Positions 4,628-28,599 of a stretch of DNA of 29,604 nucleotides are shown one piece after another. Every line of letters starts with the position of its first letter. Within the stretch, counting starts at the first letter, position 1. The notes below the pieces were generated by a model that did no database searches, had not been told where the DNA came from, and worked only from the letters and a program-made list of their open reading frames with translations. The DNA lies in IMG/VR virus record IMGVR_UViG_3300019761_000011, positions 1 to 29,604 of that record; one strand, written 5' to 3'. The position numbers and the translations under genes were made by a program. The stretch is from a virus.

Positions 4628-4711
4628 GACTGTAAAGGTAATTACTTAATCCGTAATTACAAATAATAAATGTAATTTCTTTTAAATATTCATTTGTTCG
4701 GGATTTCCGAC

Positions 4712-4745
4712 CCACTCCGCACCTTGATTTTTAAGTGTGGAGTGG
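4712..4745. promoter_or_regulatory. Inverted repeat in the divergent control region
   Basis: CCACTCC (4712-4718) and GGAGTGG (4739-4745), extended inward by a G-T pair and CAC/GTG, make an 11-bp stem with a 12-nt loop and no T-tract. AAGTGTGG is also repeated directly at 4733-4740 and 4748-4755. It lies downstream of the minus-strand -7 candidate at 4768-4761, so it would be in the leader of the replication operon. It may be an operator, a leader hairpin, or part of a replication origin. Confidence 0.5.
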
Positions 4746-4760
4746 CAAGTGTGGTATTTA

Positions 4761-4768
4761 CAAATGTA
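4761..4768 (-). promoter_or_regulatory. Putative -7 box of the replication operon
   Basis: On the minus strand TACATTTG is an exact match to the Bacteroidota -7 consensus TAnnTTTG. One ATTACCACT copy (4772-4780) lies directly upstream, as expected for a repressor or activator site touching the promoter. No convincing TTTG stands 19-21 nt upstream. A weaker alternative is TACATTTA at 4674-4667, closer to the ATG at 4627. Confidence 0.45.
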
Positions 4769-4771
4769 GCA

Positions 4772-6236: not shown

Positions 6237-8642
6237 TCATTTGGTTGATAAATCTAAAATTCTACATAGAAAATTGATAAACCCATCAGTTGCCTGTGTT
6301 ACAGCCTCAGAAGTATTCTTTGTTGATGGATTATCTGGCAATAACACCCCATTATCGTAATTAATTCTATCACAACTTTCATAAGTGCAAGATAAGGCCC
6401 CCTTATCTAATCCATACACAGCCCATGTCCCGTGATTAGTAGTATATTGCACCCATCCGAATTGAGTAATTACATCAGTTATTGGAGGATGTGAAGCATA
6501 ATTAATTTTCCACTTTCTGGAAATATATTCAATGCTTTCAGCCCCTATATTTATCACCTCTCCCATTCTTGTACTAACGTACATTTGATTTTTATTTGCT
6601 CCTGAAGTAAAATTATGATGATCTATGAAGACTTGAGGGTTAATTTCCTCCATATAATGAACAATCACCTGTGTTTCGTATTCACTCGCGGCAGATGGTC
6701 CAGAGTAAGTGCTTGTTCCGAATCCTTCAACTCTCCAATCAGATGTAGGTGCATTTCTATTCAAGTCTACACCGTTGAAGTTTGTTCGAGTTCCTTTATC
6801 AACTCCATAAGGACCAGCGCACGGCATAATGTAAAATGTTGAATTATAACGCATAGCCTCTATATTCTTATTTGATGCCCATGCTGTGCATATTAAGTTC
6901 ATAGTTTGGTATAAATCAAAAATACCCATATACTCTGGGTGTATTCCAGACAAAATAAAACATTTCAATTCATCTGCTATTGATGTAACGGTAGCCTCCA
7001 CACTGTTGCTTGGTGCATGATACGGAGAAAACTTGTACATATAAATCGGATGCCCAGCCATGTAAGCAGGCGTGTTTATGCCTGAATCAGCATCACAATC
7101 AATCTTCGATACGTATTCAGGGAATGCAGTAACTAAATCATCATATAACCCATAAAAATAAGGCGTTGATTCATCTACCGATAAAGGAGGAAGAACAGGA
7201 AGAGCAGGAGGGTCTATCTCGAATGTTAAGCCCCTGTTGAATACAGGCTTTGAAACTAGCCTACTATTTTTTGTTGTGTCCCTAAAGTTCAACTCAAAAA
7301 CATAATCCAAAGACCCCGAACCTGTTAAGCCTGTTGAGTACCATGCTAAAGATGTGTAGTTCGTCTCAGCTATAAAAATATGCTCAGTTAACCCACTTAC
7401 TTCGTCCCGTGTTATAGTTTGGTTCGTCGTTCCGTCCTCTCTCGTAAATACAATATTGCCTTTTAAAACATCTACGCCAGAATCTATTGTAAATTTTAAT
7501 TCTTCGCCAGAATATAAAACAATATTAGGGATGGTAGTAGTTAGTCCACCTGTATATTTAAAACCACCTGTTGTTATTGATTTTCCGTTTTTAACCTCTG
7601 TGATTGCCTCGCTAAGTGGAATGTTCGCTAGTGTGTCAATATTAACATCAACGGTAGCTGTGCCCGCAGTTGCTAATGAAGAAAATGCCACCCTAATATC
7701 TACATAATCCTCAACCGCTGTCCAACTGTAGCTAATCCCGTCAGCGACTGCTGCGTCTTGTTTTATAGCCACAAAAGACCCATTTTTCAATTCGCCAGCA
7801 ATAGTCACAAGGTAGCCGTATGTGGATGTGTTAATGTTTACAAAAATAGTTTCTCCTTCATGAACTCCATAACCTAAAAAGTGTAAACTACTTGCCTCAT
7901 AATCAAATTCAACTTCTTCTATAAATGATTTCCGTGAATCATAATTGTAATCATTACGAGTTTTATTGTTAAGATCTATTTTTGCATTTAACGCTAATGG
8001 TGCAGGTGTATTTGTTACCATATTAAATATAGCAGTTCCAGCAGAGAATGAACCCGAAAAGAACACCCTAATATCCTTATAGTCTTCATTAAACGTATAA
8101 CTAAATACCTCGACAGCCTCGTCAATAATTAGATTTTTAAATGTAAAAAAATCTTCATTTAATTTTTGCGCCGCAAATGAGATTTGAAAACCTGCTACTG
8201 GCGCCTGTGTTGTGAACGTTATAGTTTCCCCATTCGCAATAGGATAATTTAGCAAATATACACCACCCGGAATGAAGTCTATCGTTCTAGTTCTGTCATT
8301 TGTAAATCTAGATTCTAATATATCCATATCGGCACTATACACCTGCTTTTTTATCCATTTACCCCCATCGTATTCAAGCACGCATATTTCATTCTCAACC
8401 CTGATGTTTGAAAAGTTTGGGTAAACACCATCAGTAGTTGGCAAGACCGTTGCCCCTTCTTCAACACCTGTTTTTGCAGGGCTTGATGGTGTTATGTCAC
8501 CTAAGTATTGAGTCTTGAGATTACCTAAGTTGTTCAACACTAAATCAAAAGCGTCCCTAGCATCCTTAGCTTTGATTGCTTTGTTTAAATTATCAGGTAG
8601 TAAATTGCCTATCAGCACTTTTAAATCGCCTATATCGCTCAT
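6237..8642 (-). CDS. 801-aa tail protein with M14 zinc-carboxypeptidase-like domain
   Basis: The last ~300 residues carry an M14 (carboxypeptidase A-type) pattern: GIHPEYMG with His568, GVDLNRNAP with Asn628-Arg629, FIDHHNF with His675/His676, and TYES with Glu755 as candidate general base. Spacings fit the family. The first motif is unusual: Glu is at His+2 (Glu570), where M14 enzymes normally have HxxE. The first ~500 residues look like repeated beta-sandwich virion modules; similar segments (PVAGFQISFAAQKL, YDIRVFFSG-like) recur about three times. It is the last large gene of the tail operon, where fibre, spike or receptor-binding proteins sit. The peptidase domain may cut peptidoglycan peptides or surface proteins during adsorption (inference). 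Confidence 0.8.
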   Translation of the reverse strand: MSDIGDLKVLIGNLLPDNLNKAIKAKDARDAFDLVLNNLGNLKTQYLGDITPSSPAKTGVEEGATVLPTTDGVYPNFSNIRVENEICVLEYDGGKWIKKQVYSADMDILESRFTNDRTRTIDFIPGGVYLLNYPIANGETITFTTQAPVAGFQISFAAQKLNEDFFTFKNLIIDEAVEVFSYTFNEDYKDIRVFFSGSFSAGTAIFNMVTNTPAPLALNAKIDLNNKTRNDYNYDSRKSFIEEVEFDYEASSLHFLGYGVHEGETIFVNINTSTYGYLVTIAGELKNGSFVAIKQDAAVADGISYSWTAVEDYVDIRVAFSSLATAGTATVDVNIDTLANIPLSEAITEVKNGKSITTGGFKYTGGLTTTIPNIVLYSGEELKFTIDSGVDVLKGNIVFTREDGTTNQTITRDEVSGLTEHIFIAETNYTSLAWYSTGLTGSGSLDYVFELNFRDTTKNSRLVSKPVFNRGLTFEIDPPALPVLPPLSVDESTPYFYGLYDDLVTAFPEYVSKIDCDADSGINTPAYMAGHPIYMYKFSPYHAPSNSVEATVTSIADELKCFILSGIHPEYMGIFDLYQTMNLICTAWASNKNIEAMRYNSTFYIMPCAGPYGVDKGTRTNFNGVDLNRNAPTSDWRVEGFGTSTYSGPSAASEYETQVIVHYMEEINPQVFIDHHNFTSGANKNQMYVSTRMGEVINIGAESIEYISRKWKINYASHPPITDVITQFGWVQYTTNHGTWAVYGLDKGALSCTYESCDRINYDNGVLLPDNPSTKNTSEAVTQATDGFINFLCRILDLSTK

Positions 8643-12751: not shown

Positions 12752-13071
12752 TTTTTTTTTACTTCCTCAGATAATTCTTTAATAGACTTCCCCATGCTTT
12801 TAGACTCGCCAAAGCATTTTAAAGCTTTCTCAAACTCTTTAAAGTCGTTATTCATTAATTGATATACGTCCTTTATCGTAGCGTCGCAATCATCGCCTAA
12901 TAAGTCGGCGTGATTCTTAATACCTGCCCAAACTGTATTTACAGAATTCATATGATCTGATTCGTCAGTGGACATGCTCAATTTCTCATCCTCGATGATT
13001 TTGAAAATGCGCACCCCGAAGAGTACGCCTATTTCTTTATTATTGAGCTTTATGGTGCATTCGCCTATCAT
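12691..13071 (-). CDS. Tail assembly chaperone (gpG-like), 126 aa
   Basis: Located between the major tail protein and tape measure genes. The unshifted product is acidic to neutral and helical, beginning MIGECTIKLNNKEIGVLFGV, and ends with seven Lys and a short tail NWIHRLFGSPFLKTV. The poly-Lys codons are the slippery region. Codon 107 (AAG, 12753-12751) is the last one read before the proposed -1 shift. Its start overlaps the major tail protein stop (TAATG). It probably keeps the tape measure soluble and helps tail tube assembly, but is not expected in the mature virion. Confidence 0.8.
   Translation of the reverse strand: MIGECTIKLNNKEIGVLFGVRIFKIIEDEKLSMSTDESDHMNSVNTVWAGIKNHADLLGDDCDATIKDVYQLMNNDFKEFEKALKCFGESKSMGKSIKELSEEVKKKKKKKNWIHRLFGSPFLKTV
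12751..12757 (-). promoter_or_regulatory. Slippery heptamer for -1 programmed frameshift
   Basis: On the minus strand the nine-A run ending in G is read as GTA AAA AAA AAG, so the last seven bases form A AAA AAG in the correct phase, the same heptamer as in E. coli dnaX. The -1 frame is closed by TGA a few codons upstream (just before AGT AAA) and open for 121 codons afterwards. Confidence 0.8.
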
Positions 13072-13499
13072 TAAGCTGTTGTTGAAGGAACTAGTTGCCC
13101 TACGCCCTTAAATGACACACTCATAGTCATTAATTCACCTTTTGGGGCTGGAATAGATATGCTTTCCAGCAAAGCTTCGCCAGTAAACAAGATGTCACCT
13201 GTTTCAGTGTCTTCCCCGATTGCAATTTTACGCCTAGTACTCTGGGCTGGGTCTAAAATTCTAGTTATTAATCCAGTTACCTCAGCGTTTTCTTTGTCAT
13301 AAAAAAGCTCTGATGATGCGCTCCAACTTCTTGTTCCATCAATAAAGTCTTCGACTCCACCAGTACCCTTGTCTGACGCGTCTAATAAAGCGTTCCCGAA
13401 ATCTAAATCGGTCGATGTCTCTGTCGGGATGGCTGTTTTTACAGTTCCCGCAACGTCAAATATCCAAAGGATAAACTTATCTCCTAATTGTTTTGGCAT
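13071..13499 (-). CDS. Major tail (tube) protein, 142 aa
   Basis: This beta-rich, acidic protein lies between the tail terminator and chaperone genes, the standard site of the tube protein. It contains FGNALLDASDKGTGGVEDFI, SWSASSELFYDKENAEVTGL and a C-terminal MTMSVSFKGVGQL strand, as in phage major tail proteins of the TP901-1/HK97 type. It starts MPKQLGDKFILWIFDVAGTV; the ATG at 13499 is 3 nt from the upstream stop. It likely polymerises into the tail tube. Confidence 0.8.
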   Translation of the reverse strand: MPKQLGDKFILWIFDVAGTVKTAIPTETSTDLDFGNALLDASDKGTGGVEDFIDGTRSWSASSELFYDKENAEVTGLITRILDPAQSTRRKIAIGEDTETGDILFTGEALLESISIPAPKGELMTMSVSFKGVGQLVPSTTA

Positions 13500-13502
13500 A
13501 GC

Positions 13503-13898
13503 TTAAAAATTAATTTGTGTTAAATTATACGTATAGTTTATTAATATTCTATTAATTGTGCGCTGATCGTCAGCGTTTTCTTCGGTTAATGGTGTCGTCC
13601 CTGTCATTATAACCATATCCACGGTAAAATCAGGCACTATTACAGGGGTTTCAATTATCTTATTCTGCAATTCTTCAGATATCAACATAGCTTCGCCCTC
13701 ATTGCGATTTTCTGTTATCACATCGAACACGATATCAACGGGTTTCGAATTATCGCCCTTGTCTATCTGTTGACCTCCTGATGATAAATACACCTCTACA
13801 CGCGGATAATCACCAACGCCGTTATTAATGTACCCGTTATCAGGTAGCCAATTATCTTTAAATTCCGCCAGGAGCCTGAATCCTTGATCTTTTTGCAT
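13503..13898 (-). CDS. Tail terminator / tail completion protein (131 aa)
   Basis: I start at the ATG at 13898 (MQKDQGFRLLAEFKDNWLPD) because it follows a promoter-like box by 16 nt; the longer frame from 13958 would run through that box. Residues PRVEVYLSSGGQQIDKGDNS and PVDIVFDVITENRNEGEAML with a C-terminal strand RTINRILINYTYNLTQI fit the gpU/gp17-like tail terminator family in size and order. It would cap the tail tube at the head-proximal end. It is the first gene after the inverted plus-strand gene, so it probably begins a new transcript. Confidence 0.65.
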   Translation of the reverse strand: MQKDQGFRLLAEFKDNWLPDNGYINNGVGDYPRVEVYLSSGGQQIDKGDNSKPVDIVFDVITENRNEGEAMLISEELQNKIIETPVIVPDFTVDMVIMTGTTPLTEENADDQRTINRILINYTYNLTQINF

Positions 13899-13914
13899 AA
13901 AAATTGATTTGTTG

Positions 13915-13922
13915 TAAATATA
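13915..13922 (-). promoter_or_regulatory. Putative promoter of the tail operon
   Basis: TATATTTA on the minus strand, preceded by TTTCG, resembles TAnnTTTG and the TATCTTTR boxes before the terminase and portal genes. It is 16 nt upstream of the ATG at 13898. A new start here makes sense because a terminator-bounded plus-strand gene separates the tail genes from the head genes. Confidence 0.4.
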
Positions 13923-13939
13923 CGAAATAATTTGATAAC

Positions 13940-13994
13940 ATGTTTTAGAACATATCAATAGATTTTTATGGGGAATTATAAAGGAGTAGATTTG
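13940..13994 (+). promoter_or_regulatory. Dyad copy 2 and accessory-type promoter
   Basis: ATGTTTTAGAACAT (13940-13953), an almost perfect dyad, is followed after exactly 33 nt by TAGATTTG (13987-13994), an exact -7 consensus match. The ATG of the 130-aa gene (14025) comes 30 nt later. TTTT stands 19 nt before the -7 box, a partial -33 match. Confidence 0.7.
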
Positions 13995-14417: not shown

Positions 14418-14487
14418 TATGCTTTTGTAAAAAGCAAATAGCGTGGGGAAAATAAATAAAAATTGCATGTAACATAGGTATAAAGTT

Positions 14488-14540
14488 CATGTCCATTATC
14501 GGACATGAGCAAAGCCCGACCTTAATTGATCGGGCTTTTT
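14488..14540 (+). terminator. Tandem hairpins ending the plus-strand gene
   Basis: A perfect 7-bp hairpin CATGTCC/GGACATG (14488-14494, 14501-14507) is followed by AAAGCCCGA (14511-14519) and TCGGGCTTT (14530-14538), a perfect 9-bp stem with T-tract TTTTT on the plus strand. The second hairpin is a clear plus-strand terminator; on the minus strand its tract is weak, so late messages may pass. It touches the stop of the gp10-like gene at 14539. Confidence 0.8.
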
Positions 14541-15054
14541 ACAACTTAGCATTTCTACCGCTATTGCGTAAGACTACTTTTAGATTCTTAACAAGTAAAT
14601 TAGCGTTCTTTTTCCATGCTGGTATTAAATAAGGTCGAGGCTTTGTTCCATTATTAGCTATGGACCTGCCGATTAAAAAAGCCACTGATTTGATTTTTTT
14701 AGGATCCGTTTCAATTCCTTTTTTCTTAACCCATGTTTCAAGCGGCGCAAGTGGTGGAAATCCCCCCGCCTTTCTTCCAAACTCTAAGTAACCGCCATAA
14801 GCAGCACCCACAATGACCTCACCTATATTCCTAAGCTTATTAAAGCGGCTTTCAATAGAGTTGATTAGTAAGCTCGTTGATATGCTGCCGTTATCTTTAA
14901 CATTCTGCTTTGCATCTGCTGCCGTGTTTAAAGTAGCTTTGATCACTTCATTGGAGCATTGCTCTAAAGTTTTACCACCCCAAAAACGAATAGAGCGCAA
15001 CGCCCTATTCATATCTTTGTCAAAAACCTTTAGTTGAATACCATCTTTAGCCAT
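14539..15054 (-). CDS. HK97 gp10-like head-tail joining protein (171 aa)
   Basis: Characteristic segments are visible: GEVIVGAAYGGYLEFGRKAG (residues about 76-95), APLETWVKKKG and, near the C-terminus, KPRPYLIPAWKKN, as in the HK97_gp10-like (tail completion / minor structural) family. The N-terminal half has the helix RFWGGKTLEQCSNEVIKATL. The order (connector, adaptor, gp10-like, tail terminator, major tail protein) is the usual one. It probably helps join tail to head. It stops inside the terminator of the neighbouring plus-strand gene. Confidence 0.8.
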   Translation of the reverse strand: MAKDGIQLKVFDKDMNRALRSIRFWGGKTLEQCSNEVIKATLNTAADAKQNVKDNGSISTSLLINSIESRFNKLRNIGEVIVGAAYGGYLEFGRKAGGFPPLAPLETWVKKKGIETDPKKIKSVAFLIGRSIANNGTKPRPYLIPAWKKNANLLVKNLKVVLRNSGRNAKL

Positions 15055-15055
15055 A

Positions 15056-15388
15056 TCAAGCTGTATAAGACCCTAATATAACGACTCTTCTTTTAGCGTG
15101 ATTGTCTGGATCAACAAAAGACGCTACTGGTATCTTATTGCCGTTCCACATAAAATAAGAGGGTAGTGTGTCTATCCAATTCATTTCGATTAACACAGGA
15201 TTATTAATCCCCTGTTGTCGATATTGCAAGGCTTTATTACCGCTTAACACATCTATCTTCGCCAGTCCTGTAAATAAAGATGTATCTGTGTTGCTACTTC
15301 CAAATCCAGCACCTTCAGTTGTTATGAAAGCCTCGACCTCCTGATCGTAATCAGTGCCTAGTATTCGTCTTTTTGGTTTGAATATCAT
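15056..15388 (-). CDS. Head-tail adaptor / stopper-like protein (110 aa)
   Basis: I choose the ATG at 15388 (MIFKPKRRILGTDYDQEVEA), which overlaps the stop of the previous gene as ATGA, instead of a TTG at 15397. The short beta-rich protein with ALQYRQQGINNPVLIEMNWI and KRRVVILGSYTA fits small head-closure (SPP1 gp16-type) proteins by size and location, 1 nt before the gp10-like gene. The family match is modest; genomic context carries most of the weight. Confidence 0.55.
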   Translation of the reverse strand: MIFKPKRRILGTDYDQEVEAFITTEGAGFGSSNTDTSLFTGLAKIDVLSGNKALQYRQQGINNPVLIEMNWIDTLPSYFMWNGNKIPVASFVDPDNHAKRRVVILGSYTA

Positions 15389-16455
15389 AAGCCCCAAATT
15401 ACATTATCAAAAACAAAACCCTGAAAACCACCAGTAACACCTGTATTATTTGCCGAAACAGATTCGCACCTAAATACGATATCTGATTTCTCTTGGAAAA
15501 CTAAAGGGATGGTATAAACAGCCCTCCATGTTCCTGTTCCTTGTGTATTTAACGATATTCTTCGGCCAACTCTAAACACCTTGCCGAAATCGCGCCTTAA
15601 CTGGGTGAACACTGCTGAACTGGCAACGCCGCCGCTTTTAGATATGGCAACATAACCCTCAACATACACCAGTGTTTTACCTGCTGGCACAGAATATATC
15701 ATCATTTCAGTTTGATTCGCTGATGCTTTAACTTGTGCTCTAATTAAAGAGACATCAATGGGCACGCCACCAGAAAGAGCTGTGTTTTCATAAACATACA
15801 CGTCTCCCAATAGAGGCGTGGTATTGCTGTTAAACACCCTATACACTCTTATTAAACTGGTCGGCAATGCGAGTCTCGTTTGTCCTGTTAAATTAATAGT
15901 CTGAATAACCCTATCCCAATTAGCATCCAACCCCTCTATCGTAATCTCTACATTATCAGACGCGTTAGAGCTTGATATACTATTAATAGCGGCTGTCGTG
16001 CTAAAAGTGTAGATTCCTCCAAGATCCCAGATATCCTCTGGCGCTGAGCCTGTGTCTATAGATTCGTTTTCCCCATACTTATTGATCGCATAAACGCCTC
16101 TTATTTGCCCTAGCTGTACTTTTATTGCAAAATTATTATCGTTCAGCAAATCAAATACGTTGGTGCTTATAATTCCAGCAAGTTCAGCTTCTAAAGCCGC
16201 AGCATCTGCGTAAGGAGTGCCGCTTTCATCTAAATAACTGGTTATCGGCTGGAATTTAACTAGCTCAAAGTAATTATCTTTGCCGTATATAGCCGCACTA
16301 AGCTTTCCAGTGCCGTATGTTAGCCTATATTCGTTTTTGGGATAAATATTATCGTTTATTCTGAAATTACCTTCTGTGTCTGAATAAACTCTTTGGCTAA
16401 ATGCAGATAAAAAGGCTGCAAGTATTAACGATAATAATAATAATAGTCTTTTCAT
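15385..16455 (-). CDS. 356-aa protein with N-terminal signal peptide inside the head-tail module
   Basis: The N-terminus MKRLLLLLSLILAAFLSAFS is a clear secretion signal: two basic residues, a long Leu/Ala core and a likely cleavage site after AFS, before Q-RVYSD. The mature part is beta-rich and neutral (FRINDNIYPKNEYRLTYGTG, ITSYLDESGTPYADAAALEA, NVEITIEGLDANWDRVIQTI), resembling phage virion surface or decoration modules. Neighbours overlap or lie 3 nt away, so it is co-expressed with head-tail connector genes. A signal peptide is unexpected for a virion part assembled in the cytoplasm. It may be an exported adhesin or exclusion factor, or a structural protein with an unremoved hydrophobic N-terminus. 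No family was named. Confidence 0.7.
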   Translation of the reverse strand: MKRLLLLLSLILAAFLSAFSQRVYSDTEGNFRINDNIYPKNEYRLTYGTGKLSAAIYGKDNYFELVKFQPITSYLDESGTPYADAAALEAELAGIISTNVFDLLNDNNFAIKVQLGQIRGVYAINKYGENESIDTGSAPEDIWDLGGIYTFSTTAAINSISSSNASDNVEITIEGLDANWDRVIQTINLTGQTRLALPTSLIRVYRVFNSNTTPLLGDVYVYENTALSGGVPIDVSLIRAQVKASANQTEMMIYSVPAGKTLVYVEGYVAISKSGGVASSAVFTQLRRDFGKVFRVGRRISLNTQGTGTWRAVYTIPLVFQEKSDIVFRCESVSANNTGVTGGFQGFVFDNVIWGL

Positions 16456-21436: not shown

Positions 21437-21489
21437 GCTTTACAACATGCTTTCAATTAGCTAGAATGCTTTTTAAAGTTGTAGATTTG
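21435..21489 (+). promoter_or_regulatory. Dyad copy 4 and accessory-type promoter of the lipoprotein gene
   Basis: ATGCTTTACAACAT (21435-21448), exactly 33 nt, then TAGATTTG (21482-21489), identical to two other accessory promoters. The lipoprotein ATG (21521) is 31 nt after the box. No TTTG element is present at -33, so an activator may replace it. Confidence 0.7.
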
Positions 21490-21520: not shown

Positions 21521-21895
21521 ATGAGAAAATTAATGATTTTAATAATTGCCTTAGTGACATTATCGATGTCAAGTTGCACTGATGCTGATGTAGCATCAAG
21601 AAATTTAAGCAGGGCTGCTGATCAGTTCGAGATTTACAGAAGGGTAGTGTTTTATAATGGTATTACAGATGCTTACATATTATCTGTAGAGGGATATTGC
21701 TCTATCAGTGAGCTTAACGGACAATTAGAAGTGACAATAAAGACGAAAGAAGGAATGTTTCTTAAGCATCATTTAGGATTGTCTGACAATGTTACCTACT
21801 TCTCTGAACAATTACAGTCAAAACACGTATCTAAAGATAGATATAGGGTAATATTTAAACCTAGTGTTATTCTACCAAGTATAGATGTAGAATAG
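21521..21895 (+). CDS. Phage beta-sandwich-type lipoprotein (124 aa)
   Basis: The N-terminus MRKLMILIIALVTLSMSSCT is a lipoprotein signal with the lipobox ending at Cys19, so the mature protein should be lipid-anchored outside the inner membrane. The mature part (DADVASRNLSRAADQFEIYR, then RVVFYNGITDAYILSVEGYC) closely resembles a family of phage lipoproteins, usually annotated as beta-sandwich lipoproteins, that occur in many phages. Exclusion of related phages is a proposed role for such proteins, not shown here. It is a single-gene unit with its own dyad-linked promoter and terminator, inserted between late genes. Confidence 0.75.
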   Translation: MRKLMILIIALVTLSMSSCTDADVASRNLSRAADQFEIYRRVVFYNGITDAYILSVEGYCSISELNGQLEVTIKTKEGMFLKHHLGLSDNVTYFSEQLQSKHVSKDRYRVIFKPSVILPSIDVE

Positions 21896-22997: not shown

Positions 22998-23043
22998 CAA
23001 ATATACCTCTTTAAATCGACACATCAAACATGTTTAAGAACAT
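22998..23043 (-). promoter_or_regulatory. Consensus promoter with dyad copy 5 over the -33 element
   Basis: On the minus strand TTTG (23028-23025), 19 nt, TATATTTG (23005-22998): full consensus match. The dyad ATGTTTAAGAACAT (23030-23043 on plus) ends 1 nt before TTTG, so a bound protein would probably affect polymerase access. The ATG at 22963 is 34 nt after the -7 box. Confidence 0.75.
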
Positions 23044-23456
23044 GATAATTCTTCGCCTGTTAAAGCGAAATATAAGTTCTGTAATTGGTGGACGTACTCG
23101 ATTTTATGATGTCCATTCTTAAAAAACCAATACCCAAAAACATTACTCAGTTTAAGCATGTGCTCTTCTGTCACTGGATTTATCCCAATAGTAGCGTGCT
23201 TAGTTTCTTTATAATCTTCTTTCAATAACCACCTTGTTATTTTCCTATGATTACTGTCTGTTAATTCAAACCCAAACTTAACTAGCCACTCTTCTGTTAG
23301 TAGGATTGGTTTGTAATCGTTAATGTCGTCAGACCCATAAAATAAACCTCGATCATCTTTTGTTGAAAACCCCATGTCTCCCAAATTGGCTATCACCACA
23401 TCTTTCCCGTCACTGTATCTAATGATATTTCCTATTCTCAATTCTTTTGCATTCAT
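23034..23456 (-). CDS. 140-aa conserved Bacteroidota phage/mobile-element protein
   Basis: The pattern MNAKELRIGNIIRY at the start, YKPILLTEEWLVKFGFEL in the middle and a C-terminal HKIEYVHQLQNLYFALTGEE is familiar from small proteins of Bacteroidota phages and conjugative elements (MNA.ELRIGN ... P..LTEEWL..FGF ... YVHQLQNLYFALTGEEL). Its biochemical role is unknown. It is the only gene downstream of the structured non-coding region 23457-23948, which could be its leader. Confidence 0.7.
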   Translation of the reverse strand: MNAKELRIGNIIRYSDGKDVVIANLGDMGFSTKDDRGLFYGSDDINDYKPILLTEEWLVKFGFELTDSNHRKITRWLLKEDYKETKHATIGINPVTEEHMLKLSNVFGYWFFKNGHHKIEYVHQLQNLYFALTGEELSCS

Positions 23457-23832
23457 CTTGTTTAGTTTAGTTATTGATTATTTGTATTGGTTAGAGTGTT
23501 TGTTGTCCCAAGCGTCCTTTGTGTAATATACTACTAAATCAATAATGATATAAATAGAATAAAACACTGGATTAGTTTATTAAGATTTAAACTAATCGGG
23601 CAAAGACTGACACATGTTGCGTTCATGCTGTTTTACTGACTAAGATCTCTCTATTACACTGTCAACGGAGGTAATACTTGTAAATCATTGCTCCGAATAT
23701 ATTAACTGTCAACTTTATACCTTACCTTTTAATATACTTAATTTAATAAGCTTTATCAAACAGGATTTATTCTTTATTGTTAGTCTGGCTTAAATCTTTA
23801 CAGACACTTAAAGGAAATTGAAAACTTTAAGC
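23457..23832 (-). other. Gene-free region with several inverted and direct repeats
   Basis: No credible gene occurs here. On the minus strand, going away from the pseudoknot RNA, there are CTTAAAG/CTTTAAG (23831-23825 and 23813-23807, 7-bp stem), GTCTG/CAGAC (23805-23801, 23787-23783), CGGAG/CTCCG (23695-23691, 23670-23666) flanked by two copies of GTTGACAGT (23713-23705, 23666-23658), and GATTAGTTT/AAACTAATC (23597-23589, 23578-23570, 9-bp stem with 10-nt loop). The last could be a 3' end, but no clear T-tract follows. The region may be part of one RNA of up to ~490 nt, or a long leader of the 140-aa gene. Confidence 0.5.
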
Positions 23833-23948
23833 GAATGACAGGCAAGAGAAAACCCTATCAGCCATATTGTGAGATGTGGATCGATAGGGTTTTATATTTT
23901 AAAAAAGAAATGAAATACATGTTATCTGACCATCTCACCTGTCATTCA
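23833..23948 (-). ncRNA. Predicted pseudoknotted structured RNA
   Basis: Read on the minus strand. Closing stem P1: GAATGACAGG (23947-23938) with CCTGTCATTC (23842-23833), perfect 10 bp. Internal hairpin P2: AAAACCCTATC (23893-23883) with GATAGGGTTTT (23859-23849), perfect 11 bp, 23-nt loop. Pseudoknot: GTGAGATG (23938-23931) with CATCTCAC (23876-23869) in the P2 loop, perfect 8 bp, sharing one base with P1. A consensus promoter ends 7 nt before the 5' side of P1, so the transcript would begin at the first stem. No open frame crosses it. It could be a stand-alone small RNA or the 5' domain of a long regulatory leader. Confidence 0.65.
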
Positions 23949-23954
23949 ATACCA

Positions 23955-23985
23955 CAAATGTAACTCTTTTATTTGGGTTGTGCAA
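23955..23985 (-). promoter_or_regulatory. Promoter of the structured RNA
   Basis: On the minus strand TTG (23985-23983), 20 nt, TACATTTG (23962-23955) fits the Bacteroidota consensus. Expected initiation is around 23948, right at the first base of stem P1. Confidence 0.65.
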
Positions 23986-23988
23986 TAG

Positions 23989-24396
23989 CTAATTTATAAA
24001 CAAATTAGAATCATCTCCACTTAATTCATAATAATCACTAGGCTCACAGCAATTATAATAACAATAATCAACAAGCCTTAAGTCTTCATCCTTATAAACA
24101 ACTCCCAGTTTGTCAAAATAAGGCTTAATAACCTCAAGTTCTTTCTTAGTGAGCAAACGCACATTTCCCCAATCACCTGACTCTTCACCATATGTACTGT
24201 AGTAAAGCCAATCGATATAAAACGCCTCATCTGAATATCCCAACTTAAAGCTATTTTTGCTCCTATTATCCCATAGACCACCTATCTTTTCTTTAAAATA
24301 CTCCTCACACTCATACGGGTCTTCTGCGTTGTATTTCTCAATAATACTTTTAGGGAATGGTAATCTAATTACCTTTTCGTGCTTGTAATCACTCAT
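23989..24396 (-). CDS. Hypothetical acidic 135-aa protein
   Basis: Rich in Tyr, Asp and Glu, beginning MSDYKHEKVIRLPFPKSIIE, with DPYECEEYFKEKIGGLWDN, an aromatic segment YSDEAFYIDWLYYSTYGEES and a tail DYCYYNCCEPSDYYELSGDD. A small acidic, Tyr-rich fold of this kind is typical of phage accessory proteins; acidic surfaces occur in DNA mimics, but there is no specific evidence for that. It follows the 157-aa gene by 16 nt. Confidence 0.6.
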   Translation of the reverse strand: MSDYKHEKVIRLPFPKSIIEKYNAEDPYECEEYFKEKIGGLWDNRSKNSFKLGYSDEAFYIDWLYYSTYGEESGDWGNVRLLTKKELEVIKPYFDKLGVVYKDEDLRLVDYCYYNCCEPSDYYELSGDDSNLFIN

Positions 24397-25293: not shown

Positions 25294-25373
25294 ATCTTTT
25301 AGTTTTATAGTTAATAACTCGTTTTGCTATTACAAATAACGGCATTTAAAACCGACTGGTAAAATATATCGAT

Positions 25374-25428
25374 GTGTTGTGTAACATGTTTCCGGATAAC
25401 TCGAATTGTCTTATTAGTTGTAGATTTG
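25374..25428 (+). promoter_or_regulatory. Dyad copy 6 and accessory-type promoter
   Basis: GTGTTGTGTAACAT (25374-25387), exactly 33 nt, then TAGATTTG (25421-25428). The ATG at 25455 is 26 nt after the box. The three bases before the box (TTG) are the same as in the lipoprotein promoter. No TTTG is present at -33. Confidence 0.7.
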
Positions 25429-25454
25429 TTGGAGTATCAATAAAAACCTAAGAA

Positions 25455-25619
25455 ATGAATTACAAGAAACATGATAAGATTGTTAGAATTGATAACTTAG
25501 ACGATGAGGGAGATTTGAGGGAAAAAGAAGAAGCATTATGCGCTTGTTTGTCCCCAACGCCAGACTCAGACAATGAATGTTGCAGGGTTTGTGGCGAATT
25601 ATTATTTAAAGAACATTAA
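25455..25619 (+). CDS. 54-aa Cys-rich small protein
   Basis: The product begins MNYKKHDKIVRIDNLDDEGD and carries five cysteines: CAC (residues 29-31) and CCRVC (42-46), the latter followed by GELLFKEH. The CxC...CxxC-type spacing suggests one small zinc site. The N-terminal half is acidic and helical. It is the first gene of a two-gene plus-strand unit with a dyad-linked promoter. Function unknown; a zinc-bound protein interaction module is plausible. Confidence 0.6.
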   Translation: MNYKKHDKIVRIDNLDDEGDLREKEEALCACLSPTPDSDNECCRVCGELLFKEH

Positions 25620-27132: not shown

Positions 27133-28599
27133 TTACATAATCCAGAGCTCAGTCGAGACTATGTTTTTTTCAATAATGCCAGTTAACGTATCTGGTGCAT
27201 CATCGTGCTTGTTTGCACTAAAAACTCTCTTGAATTTCACCACGTGATTGTAAAACTCAGGCCAACGAATATGCCAGCCTTGTGGGAAAATAATCTTTTC
27301 TTTTACTGTAGCGGCATTTGATATGATACGAGCCTCTTTATTGTCGCTTTGATGAAACCATCTTATATAACACGTGTCGGATGTTAGTTCGTCTATCTTT
27401 CTTGCAAAGCCTCTACCTCCATTATTGCTTTCAATATCTGATTCCCTTACTTTGTTTCGATCCATCATGCCAGACACTAAAGGCTCAGTAACTTCCATAC
27501 TCTCTTGTGTGTATGCGACATCTACAATATAAATAAGTCCATCGCTTGAAATGTCGTAATCAATAGAACAAAGGTAGTCATCGCCTTTATCGGCTGTATC
27601 GGTGTAGTTTTTCCTATTAATAACATTATCAGGCTGCTTGTTGTAGGTTTTCCAGTCGGAACCATACAAAAGCCCCTCTTTACTTGTTGGATTTCCTTGA
27701 TATAAAGAATCAAACTTAACAGGATCTTTAGCTCTTGATTTTTCGAGCTTCTTCAAACTATGACGGCTGGGCCAAAGTGGCTCATTCTTCTTTCTTGGGT
27801 CTAGTTCTGTAGGCTCACTCAGTTTAATAGCTTCAAAATTAATCTTAAACCAAACGTCTTGATTTTTATATTTCTCTACATCTGCCCACGACTCGATTAA
27901 AATAACAGTCTCGTTCTTTTCAATAAATCCCACCAGATCCTCTTCGTGCCACCGCGTAAACACTATTAGTTGCTGTGAGTCATTATGAAGTCGCGTATCA
28001 GCTACCGTGACATACCAGTCAATTACATTATCACGTATGATAGGTGAATTAGCCTCTTTCCAATCCTTATATAAATCATCCATTAAAAGAACGTCTACGG
28101 GATCACCCGTAAGCCCTCCTTGATAACCTACCATTTTTAACGAGCCATCACGCCCAACCATCTCGATTTCTTCGGCTGTGTTGATATAATTAGTATCCCC
28201 TTTATCAGCCATTTTAGCATCAGGATACAACTCTTTATATCTTAGTTCCGACAGTAGTTGTTTTGTTTTACGTCCAAACTTTCTTGCTTTGGTAGCGCTA
28301 TAACAGACGGTGGCAATCTTTAAATCTGGATTGCGACCTATCATTTGAGCTGGAACATTTATCGAACTGCCTTGACTCTTCCCGTGTTGCGGTGGTACTG
28401 ATATTATGAGCTTCTTTATTCTCCCATGAACAAACTCATTTAAAACTTTATAGTAAGTCTTATGGAAGCTTGTTGCCTGGAATGTTGGCATAGTGTAACG
28501 CACAAAAGCGAGAGAGTGCTTTTTCGCATACTCCGCCCGCTTTTCTTGTACTGCTTTATCAGCTAAGATTATGTCTTTATTCGTAATCTTCGAACTCAT
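27133..28599 (-). CDS. terL: Large terminase subunit (488 aa)
   Basis: ATPase motifs: Walker A PPQHGKS (residues 69-75), Walker B LLMDD (171-175), and the coupling motif QLIVFTRWHEEDL (210-222) common in large terminases. Nuclease domain: SIDYD (345-349), DIESNNGG (388-395) and HDDAPDTLTG (465-474), the acidic positions of the RNase H-like fold. The protein cuts concatemeric DNA and pumps it into the prohead through the portal. The start overlaps the small terminase gene by 23 nt. Confidence 0.95.
   Translation of the reverse strand: MSSKITNKDIILADKAVQEKRAEYAKKHSLAFVRYTMPTFQATSFHKTYYKVLNEFVHGRIKKLIISVPPQHGKSQGSSINVPAQMIGRNPDLKIATVCYSATKARKFGRKTKQLLSELRYKELYPDAKMADKGDTNYINTAEEIEMVGRDGSLKMVGYQGGLTGDPVDVLLMDDLYKDWKEANSPIIRDNVIDWYVTVADTRLHNDSQQLIVFTRWHEEDLVGFIEKNETVILIESWADVEKYKNQDVWFKINFEAIKLSEPTELDPRKKNEPLWPSRHSLKKLEKSRAKDPVKFDSLYQGNPTSKEGLLYGSDWKTYNKQPDNVINRKNYTDTADKGDDYLCSIDYDISSDGLIYIVDVAYTQESMEVTEPLVSGMMDRNKVRESDIESNNGGRGFARKIDELTSDTCYIRWFHQSDNKEARIISNAATVKEKIIFPQGWHIRWPEFYNHVVKFKRVFSANKHDDAPDTLTGIIEKNIVSTELWIM

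Follow-up and report, generated by a model that had tools for sequence, protein, structure and literature searches.

A candidate stand-alone RNA with a conserved pseudoknot, located behind a promoter-like site after the portal gene of a Bacteroidota-type phage

Analysis of the window, a stretch of 29,604 nucleotides from virus record IMGVR_UViG_3300019761_000011, revealed a short structured element on the minus strand, after the portal gene, in which a closing stem (P1), a hairpin (P2) and a pseudoknot (PK) are retained in a sister phage together with a promoter-like site. Comparison of the two phages argues that a structured element with a conserved pseudoknot is real, and the phage-encoded structured RNA proposed in the initial annotation is supported by conserved secondary structure with compensatory change in one homologue. 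The explanation we favour, at a probability of roughly 50%, is a stand-alone phage RNA of about 115 nt that would have its own Bacteroidota-type promoter, would be carried as an RNA moron after the portal gene and would act through its shape. Phage accessory loci are, by general impression, mostly read for proteins. A short RNA with a conserved pseudoknot, its own promoter and an exchanged preceding gene points to a selected RNA function; it might, for instance, serve as a decoy, counter host defences or control a gene further on.

The element is built from P1, a 10-bp closing stem, P2, an 11-bp hairpin, and PK, a helix of 8 bp (Table 1). These three helices had been noticed in the sequence before and all lie where they had been placed, except that G23938 had been counted twice, in P1 and in PK, the true count being 10 + 7 or 9 + 8 pairs. 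As in an H-type pseudoknot, a strand outside the P2 hairpin pairs with the P2 loop, and these pairs are retained in the homologue; the connecting stretches are 37, 6 and 9 nt by coordinate. Pairing of TCTTG, in the junction between P2 and P1, with TGAGA (23937-23933) would extend P1 and is incompatible with PK. The region had also been described as having no coding frame, which holds for ORFs of at least 50 aa, none being found on the RNA, but not for shorter ones, as it is overlapped by one of 26 codons on the minus strand and one of 42 codons on the plus strand. The 26-codon ORF was considered as a leader peptide and rejected, since in the homologue a stop closes its frame after five codons.

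Table 1. Positions of the RNA element, its parts and neighbouring features (window coordinates unless a contig is named)
Feature	Position	Strand	Sequence or property	Homologue
Structured RNA	23833..23948	-	about 115 nt, 5′ and 3′ ends paired	
Bacteroidota-type promoter-like site	23955..23985	-	TTG, 20 nt, TACATTTG	
P1 5′ strand	23938..23947	-	GAATGACAGG	unchanged
P1 3′ strand	23833..23842	-	CCTGTCATTC	one C to U, G-U pair retained
PK 5′ strand	23931..23938	-	GTGAGATG; first G common to P1	GTGAGAGC
PK 3′ strand	23869..23876	-	CATCTCAC; within P2 loop	GCTCTCAC; two compensatory pairs
P2 5′ strand	23883..23893	-	AAAACCCTATC	one C-G to U-G, outermost A absent
P2 3′ strand	23849..23859	-	GATAGGGTTTT	invariant
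Linker, PK strand to P2	23894..23930	-	AU-rich, 37 nt	not conserved
Junction between P2 and P1	23843..23848	-	CTCTTG; TCTTG can pair with TGAGA	
135-aa gene, just upstream of RNA	23989..24396	-	no family in PHROGs or Pfam	
140-aa gene, next downstream of RNA	23034..23456	-	phrog_10066; possible mRNA in the leader reading	
Non-coding stretch, RNA to 140-aa gene	23457..23832	-	376 nt, little structure	
Large terminase, window	27133-28599			
Large terminase, homologue contig (L149)	11130-12332			

The source phage, one of Bacteroidota-type bacteria, has a contig of 41,254 bases, with the same 123 nt repeated at its two ends. Its large terminase is about 47% identical to Bacteroides and Parabacteroides phage terminases, its capsid protein 28% identical to Flavobacterium phages and its portal 23% identical to Cellulophaga phages. 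Ahead of the RNA, the minus strand carries in order a 153-aa gene (at the small-terminase position, with no family match), the genes for large terminase subunit and portal (25888), then a terminator-like site at 25883-25854 and three accessory genes (25293 to 23989). Behind the RNA come the 140-aa gene and one of 64 aa, then a second terminator-like site, at 22745-22720, and a head gene of Mu-F type.

Nested folding of positions 23950-23826 of the minus strand gave -37.7 kcal/mol (z -5.17). The claim that the three helices are hard to explain by chance held by one measure and failed by another. By helix length alone the trio is ordinary: 34 of 40 shuffled strands (20 windows) contain at least one such trio, and 2 of the 40 reach the observed 29 paired bases. 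By stacking energy, scored in a second test that followed the one on helix length, not one of the 1742 shuffled strands attained the observed value. Under laxer length limits, 92 loci (679,493 bases) contain one other place, in L030, with a marginally better score (-51.0 vs -49.0) and an AU-only 7-bp outer stem in its trio. When P2 was fixed while its flanks and loop were shuffled in 20000 runs, P1 was reached 12 times, PK 375 times and both never. On the single sequence P1 and P2 are solid and PK, the weakest helix, is only suggestive; its support comes from the homologue.

Before any pseudoknot penalty, the PK state reaches -41.7 kcal/mol against -37.7 for the nested state in the window, and -47.2 against -43.3 in the homologue, and so lies about 4 kcal/mol lower in both phages. 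A usual penalty would presumably put the nested state a little below the PK state. In this estimate the nested Vienna fold without PK lies within a few kcal/mol of the PK state and is probably a little lower. The plus strand of the RNA region folds as well (z -6.13), and among the 1180 windows of a fold scan that covered both strands, this region ranked 6th (plus) and 12th (minus), several of the other top-ranked windows being terminator-like sites.

Homologues were sought with DNA patterns, blastn and covariance models. In the viral collection, the first pattern gave two matches, both in the source phage; the second gave five, two in the source phage and three inside ORFs (L096, L097 and L098); the third gave three, two in the source phage and one, L144, that was rejected because it is an isolated hairpin between ORFs and lacks both P1 and PK. 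No match to the DNA pattern was obtained in the genome collection, and when the RNA region was compared by blastn with named phages and with plasmids, no credible match emerged. A covariance model of the window sequence alone (R1) was run on loci from 83 sources near relatives of the 140-aa or 135-aa gene (the window and L094 included), on loci from 43 sources near large terminase relatives (three pattern loci included) and on 106 whole virus records tied to the neighbouring genes (34, 37 and 35). Four records were matched by R1 at E 0.05 (G023, G029, G043 and G061), of which G043 alone is convincing: IMGVR_UViG_3300019768_000041, positions 15286-15406, with 68 bits and E 6.5e-14. This homologue was absent from the locus-level R1 search because its locus, L015, stops short of the contig end.

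A two-sequence model of the window and the homologue (R2), which both match by construction, was then applied to 126 records (49, 44 and 33) and found only these two phages, the other 124 records giving nothing at E 0.01. Across the three groups of relatives covered (140-aa gene, 135-aa gene and large terminase), the RNA thus occurs in one record besides the source phage, and as many of the 124 records are fragments, absence from them is weak evidence. One record with a 100% identical terminase (L131) is a 6.3-kb piece of the source phage itself. Several weaker matches were discarded. A match in L112/L113 (28.3 bits; E 0.004, and 2.9e-4 per record) has several pairs broken, was lost with R2 and sits in the start of an ORF that reads as a Mu-F-type head gene by place and size. 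Matches in L119/G029 (18.8 bits; E 0.68, then 0.034), G061 (18.9 bits), L057 (17 bits) and L044 (15.8 bits) were dropped as chance; G029, G061, L057 and L044 did not recur with R2. L141 (14.7 bits and less with R1) was likewise dropped as chance.

The initial annotation had proposed compensatory changes as a supporting check, and the sister phage supplies them: its homologue has lost none of the three helices, two PK pairs being altered on both sides, and P1 and P2 each by one change that leaves the pair intact, although this evidence comes from two sequences and so from one comparison. All eight PK pairs are kept, two of them altered on both sides (GUGAGAUG:CAUCUCAC to GUGAGAGC:GCUCUCAC; U-A to G-C and G-C to C-G). 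P1 keeps 10 of 10 pairs, one G-C having become G-U. P2 keeps 10 pairs, one C-G having become U-G, loses its outermost A-U pair and can extend inward by GGC/GCC. When the linker of one phage was combined with the loop of the other, the longest PK pairing fell from 8 to 6, and when linker and loop of the homologue underwent mononucleotide shuffling, 66 of 20000 runs reached 8 pairs. By rough estimate, two compensatory and six unchanged PK pairs would arise by luck about once in 16. Since MAFFT misregisters the P2 loop, PK pairs were counted by hand and the alignment-based count covers P1 and P2 only. In the hand alignment, 7 of 57 paired columns differ vs 23 of 65 unpaired ones. The promoter, each of the three helices and CTCTT at the junction are conserved; the linker varies, with indels and with differences in 15 of its 41 aligned columns (counting those with gaps). 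The alternative P1 extension (TGAGA with TCTTG) is also retained in the homologue, one U-G pair having become U-A.

The same comparison bears on the strand. The one-sided changes in P1 and P2 yield G-U pairs on the minus strand but would leave A-C mismatches on the opposite one; in the homologue, moreover, the fold of the promoter strand (-43.3 kcal/mol, z -6.39) is better than that of its complement (-36.5 kcal/mol, z -4.03). For these two reasons, a single comparison points to the minus strand as the RNA strand, as had been named from the window sequence.

The promoter-like site described in the initial annotation is present where it had been placed, starting 4 nt past the stop codon of the upstream 135-aa ORF, and both boxes and the 20-nt spacing recur in the homologue. 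The pattern TTG-N20-TANNTTTG is found twice in the window against 0.75 expected and is not enriched, so the weight of the site lies in its position and in the retention of boxes and spacing rather than in the pattern, which alone is not unusual. As described in PMC7366714, the consensus of the Bacteroidota primary sigma factor is TAnnTTTG at -7 and TTTG near -33; the site fits this consensus, its upstream box reading ATTG in the window and TTTG in the homologue.

Similarity between the two phages at this place, as found by blastn, runs from the promoter TTG (window 23985) to the end of the homologue contig, with 81% identity over 161 positions. That contig (L149) breaks at 15406, 3 nt past P1. 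An assembly break just past P1 could mean that downstream sequences differ in that community. The two portals share 61.9% identity over 402 aligned residues (homologue portal 12779-13987), and a conserved non-coding block is kept as well (window 25339-25459, homologue 14441-14561; 87% over 122 nt). The gene before the RNA is a different one: in the homologue a 215-aa ORF (14596-15243) is followed by the promoter and the RNA. This ORF matches none of the ORFs of at least 60 aa of the window phage (tblastn, E 1e-4), and the 135-aa gene has no counterpart in the homologue contig. The large terminases also belong to different families, Terminase_3 with phrog_3717 and phrog_2 in the homologue and phrog_38 in the window. 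As promoter and RNA are retained while the upstream gene differs, the two can be regarded as one unit, an 'RNA moron'. Of the features of a moron, its own promoter and changing neighbours at a fixed place, marked by the portal and the conserved block, are found; a terminator of its own was not detected between P1 and the 140-aa gene in a simple consensus scan for terminator-like sites.

Several other explanations have to be weighed against a stand-alone RNA. Because the homologue contig ends 3 nt past P1, the main rival is a cis-acting 5′ leader, in which a transcript starting at 23948 would run for about 490 nt into the 140-aa gene and mutually exclusive folds would control that gene, as in a riboswitch or attenuator. 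No other TANNTTTG box occurs on the minus strand from 23955 to the start of the gene, and the two exclusive TGAGA pairings, similar in energy, are present in both phages. Two exclusive folds are what such a leader would need, and these points, together with the lack of a terminator listed before the gene, keep the leader a possibility to be taken seriously, if a doubtful one. Against it, P1 and the start codon lie 376 nt apart, and the three pieces of this stretch fold poorly (z -0.90, 0.36 and -2.00). Moreover, the only detected relative of the 140-aa gene in the sister phage lies far from the RNA (7660-7989 vs 15286), and of 74 loci with such relatives two belong to the source phage, while among the other 72 records only the homologue has the RNA. 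It is also conceivable, though unlikely, that the element is based on a terminator, P2 with its A- and T-tracts ending the upstream transcript as well as a small RNA from the promoter, and PK tuning termination. Several terminator-like sites of this phage are hairpins flanked by A- and T-tracts at unit ends, the 3′ strand of P2 ends in TTTT followed by CTCTT in both phages, and P2 begins about 95 nt past the upstream stop codon. The stem and tail of P2 fit an intrinsic terminator, but its loop of 23 nt (14 nt in the nested fold of the homologue) exceeds the 3-8 nt of the scan, which did not list it. Termination would in any case explain P2 and not P1, since the 3′ strand of P1, conserved but for one change that preserves pairing, would lie past the point at which the RNA stops.

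The strong folds on both strands would also suit nested inverted repeats read by a protein as duplex DNA, such as an operator pair or a recombination or replication site, and the 5′ copy of P1 lies at the start site of the promoter, where an operator could sit. Such a DNA element seems improbable to us: besides the two arms, the 41-kb genome holds no exact GAATGACAGG and two copies with one mismatch, the single changes in P1 and P2 give G-U pairs on one strand, and those in PK are matched on both sides. Chance, or inherited similarity without selected structure, could appeal to the frequency with which PK alone was reached before the homologue was considered (375 of 20000), to a trio that is ordinary by helix length and to covariation drawn from one comparison. 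The energy test (0 of 1742), the joint shuffling of P1 and PK (0 of 20000), the fold of the homologue, its table of pairs and the conservation of paired columns, taken together, leave this explanation scarcely credible.

Under the favoured explanation, a stand-alone RNA, transcription would start at the foot of P1, near 23948; the 5′ strand GUGAGA(UG/GC) would pair with the P2 loop into an H-type pseudoknot, and P1 would close the whole fold. The same 5′ strand can instead extend P1, and the RNA may have two states. The folded RNA would most likely bind or decoy a host or phage protein rather than pair as an antisense RNA, since the unpaired linker is not conserved, whereas the open seed of an antisense RNA would be expected to be. 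It most likely represents a new family of phage RNA. Rather more tentatively, we suggest that it may define a new class, a self-contained moron with a closed, switchable pseudoknot (PK or a longer P1, never both). In its folded form such a moron would act on a host or phage protein as ligand or decoy, and it would stay near the portal despite exchanges of the neighbouring gene and of the terminase.

The initial annotation could match the element to no known class, and Rfam 15 gave 0 matches at gathering threshold in the window. Permissive Rfam searches of the window stretch and of the homologue listed six and ten names, respectively, all below threshold; among them mir-454 (27.2 bits, threshold 60), a eukaryotic family, was rejected. 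In the open-access literature on pseudoknotted Bacteroidota phage RNAs, structured phage RNAs, phage small RNAs and packaging RNAs, no earlier description was found. The phi29 packaging RNA is comparable in size and also has paired ends, and the present RNA lies near the portal gene. However, the present RNA has no Rfam match, the sister phage keeps it despite a terminase of another family, and no link to packaging is seen. ToxI antitoxin RNAs of type III toxin-antitoxin systems are small and pseudoknotted, have their own promoter and are carried by phages or plasmids. Unlike these, the RNA site holds no array of tandem short-pseudoknot repeats, and no toxin family, ToxN type included, was found for the downstream gene, phrog_10066. 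With regard to retrons and diversity-generating retroelements (DGRs), no reverse transcriptase occurs among the proteins scanned, which are part of the ORFs of the 41-kb genome.

GOLLD and ROOL are associated with phages and are several times larger than the present RNA. They resemble it as structured non-coding RNAs (PMC12286853), but differ in that the present RNA has no Rfam match. The nearest published descriptions found concern phage anti-sRNAs, which differ in kind, and palindromic candidate RNAs of Bacteroidetes. The anti-sRNAs AgvB and AsxR, described in PMC4104026 as Hfq-bound phage RNAs of 51-60 nt at lambdoid moron sites, are likewise small phage-encoded RNAs at an accessory (moron) position. 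As described there, they act by base pairing through a variable 5′ end, whereas here the closed pseudoknotted fold is conserved and the open part is not. HMP_4078 is presented in PMC8040213 as a palindromic candidate RNA that measures 109 bp, occurs on either strand and mainly in Bacteroidetes, lies near phage protein domains and is not predicted as a terminator; the main text of that paper does not contain the word 'pseudoknot'. By this description, which is the basis of the comparison, HMP_4078 lies near integrase and D5 domains (PMC8040213), whereas the present RNA follows a portal.

Two other non-coding blocks conserved between the phages served as controls for folding. The block at 25339-25459 has no RNA fold (z 0.10 and 0.72), and that at 944-1042 (86% over 99 nt), which adjoins a terminator-like site (1063-1042), folds weakly (z -1.65 and -1.79). 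The former contains an unchanged TAGATTTG box and a long unchanged run through AACATGTTTCCGGATAACTCGAATTGTCTTATTAGTTGTAGATTTG, and looks like a conserved phage promoter or operator of the TAnnTTTG type; a 72% similar copy of its core (25383-25428) lies at 21444-21489. Elsewhere in the window, two adjacent strong hairpins stand around the start of a short intergenic stretch (14451-14570; z -6.18 and -4.43 on the two strands), and the top fold z of the scan (-6.25, minus strand) belongs to 4651-4770, a gap between divergent ORFs with inverted repeats that is perhaps an operator region. A small lipoprotein-like ORF (21521-21895) matches Pfam Phage_VG64 and phrog_478, whose PHROGs label, recombination directionality factor, looks doubtful given the lipoprotein-like start of the ORF. 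Finally, a phosphoadenosine phosphosulfate reductase-like protein (phrog_424) is encoded by the source phage at L094:3145-4080 (minus strand).
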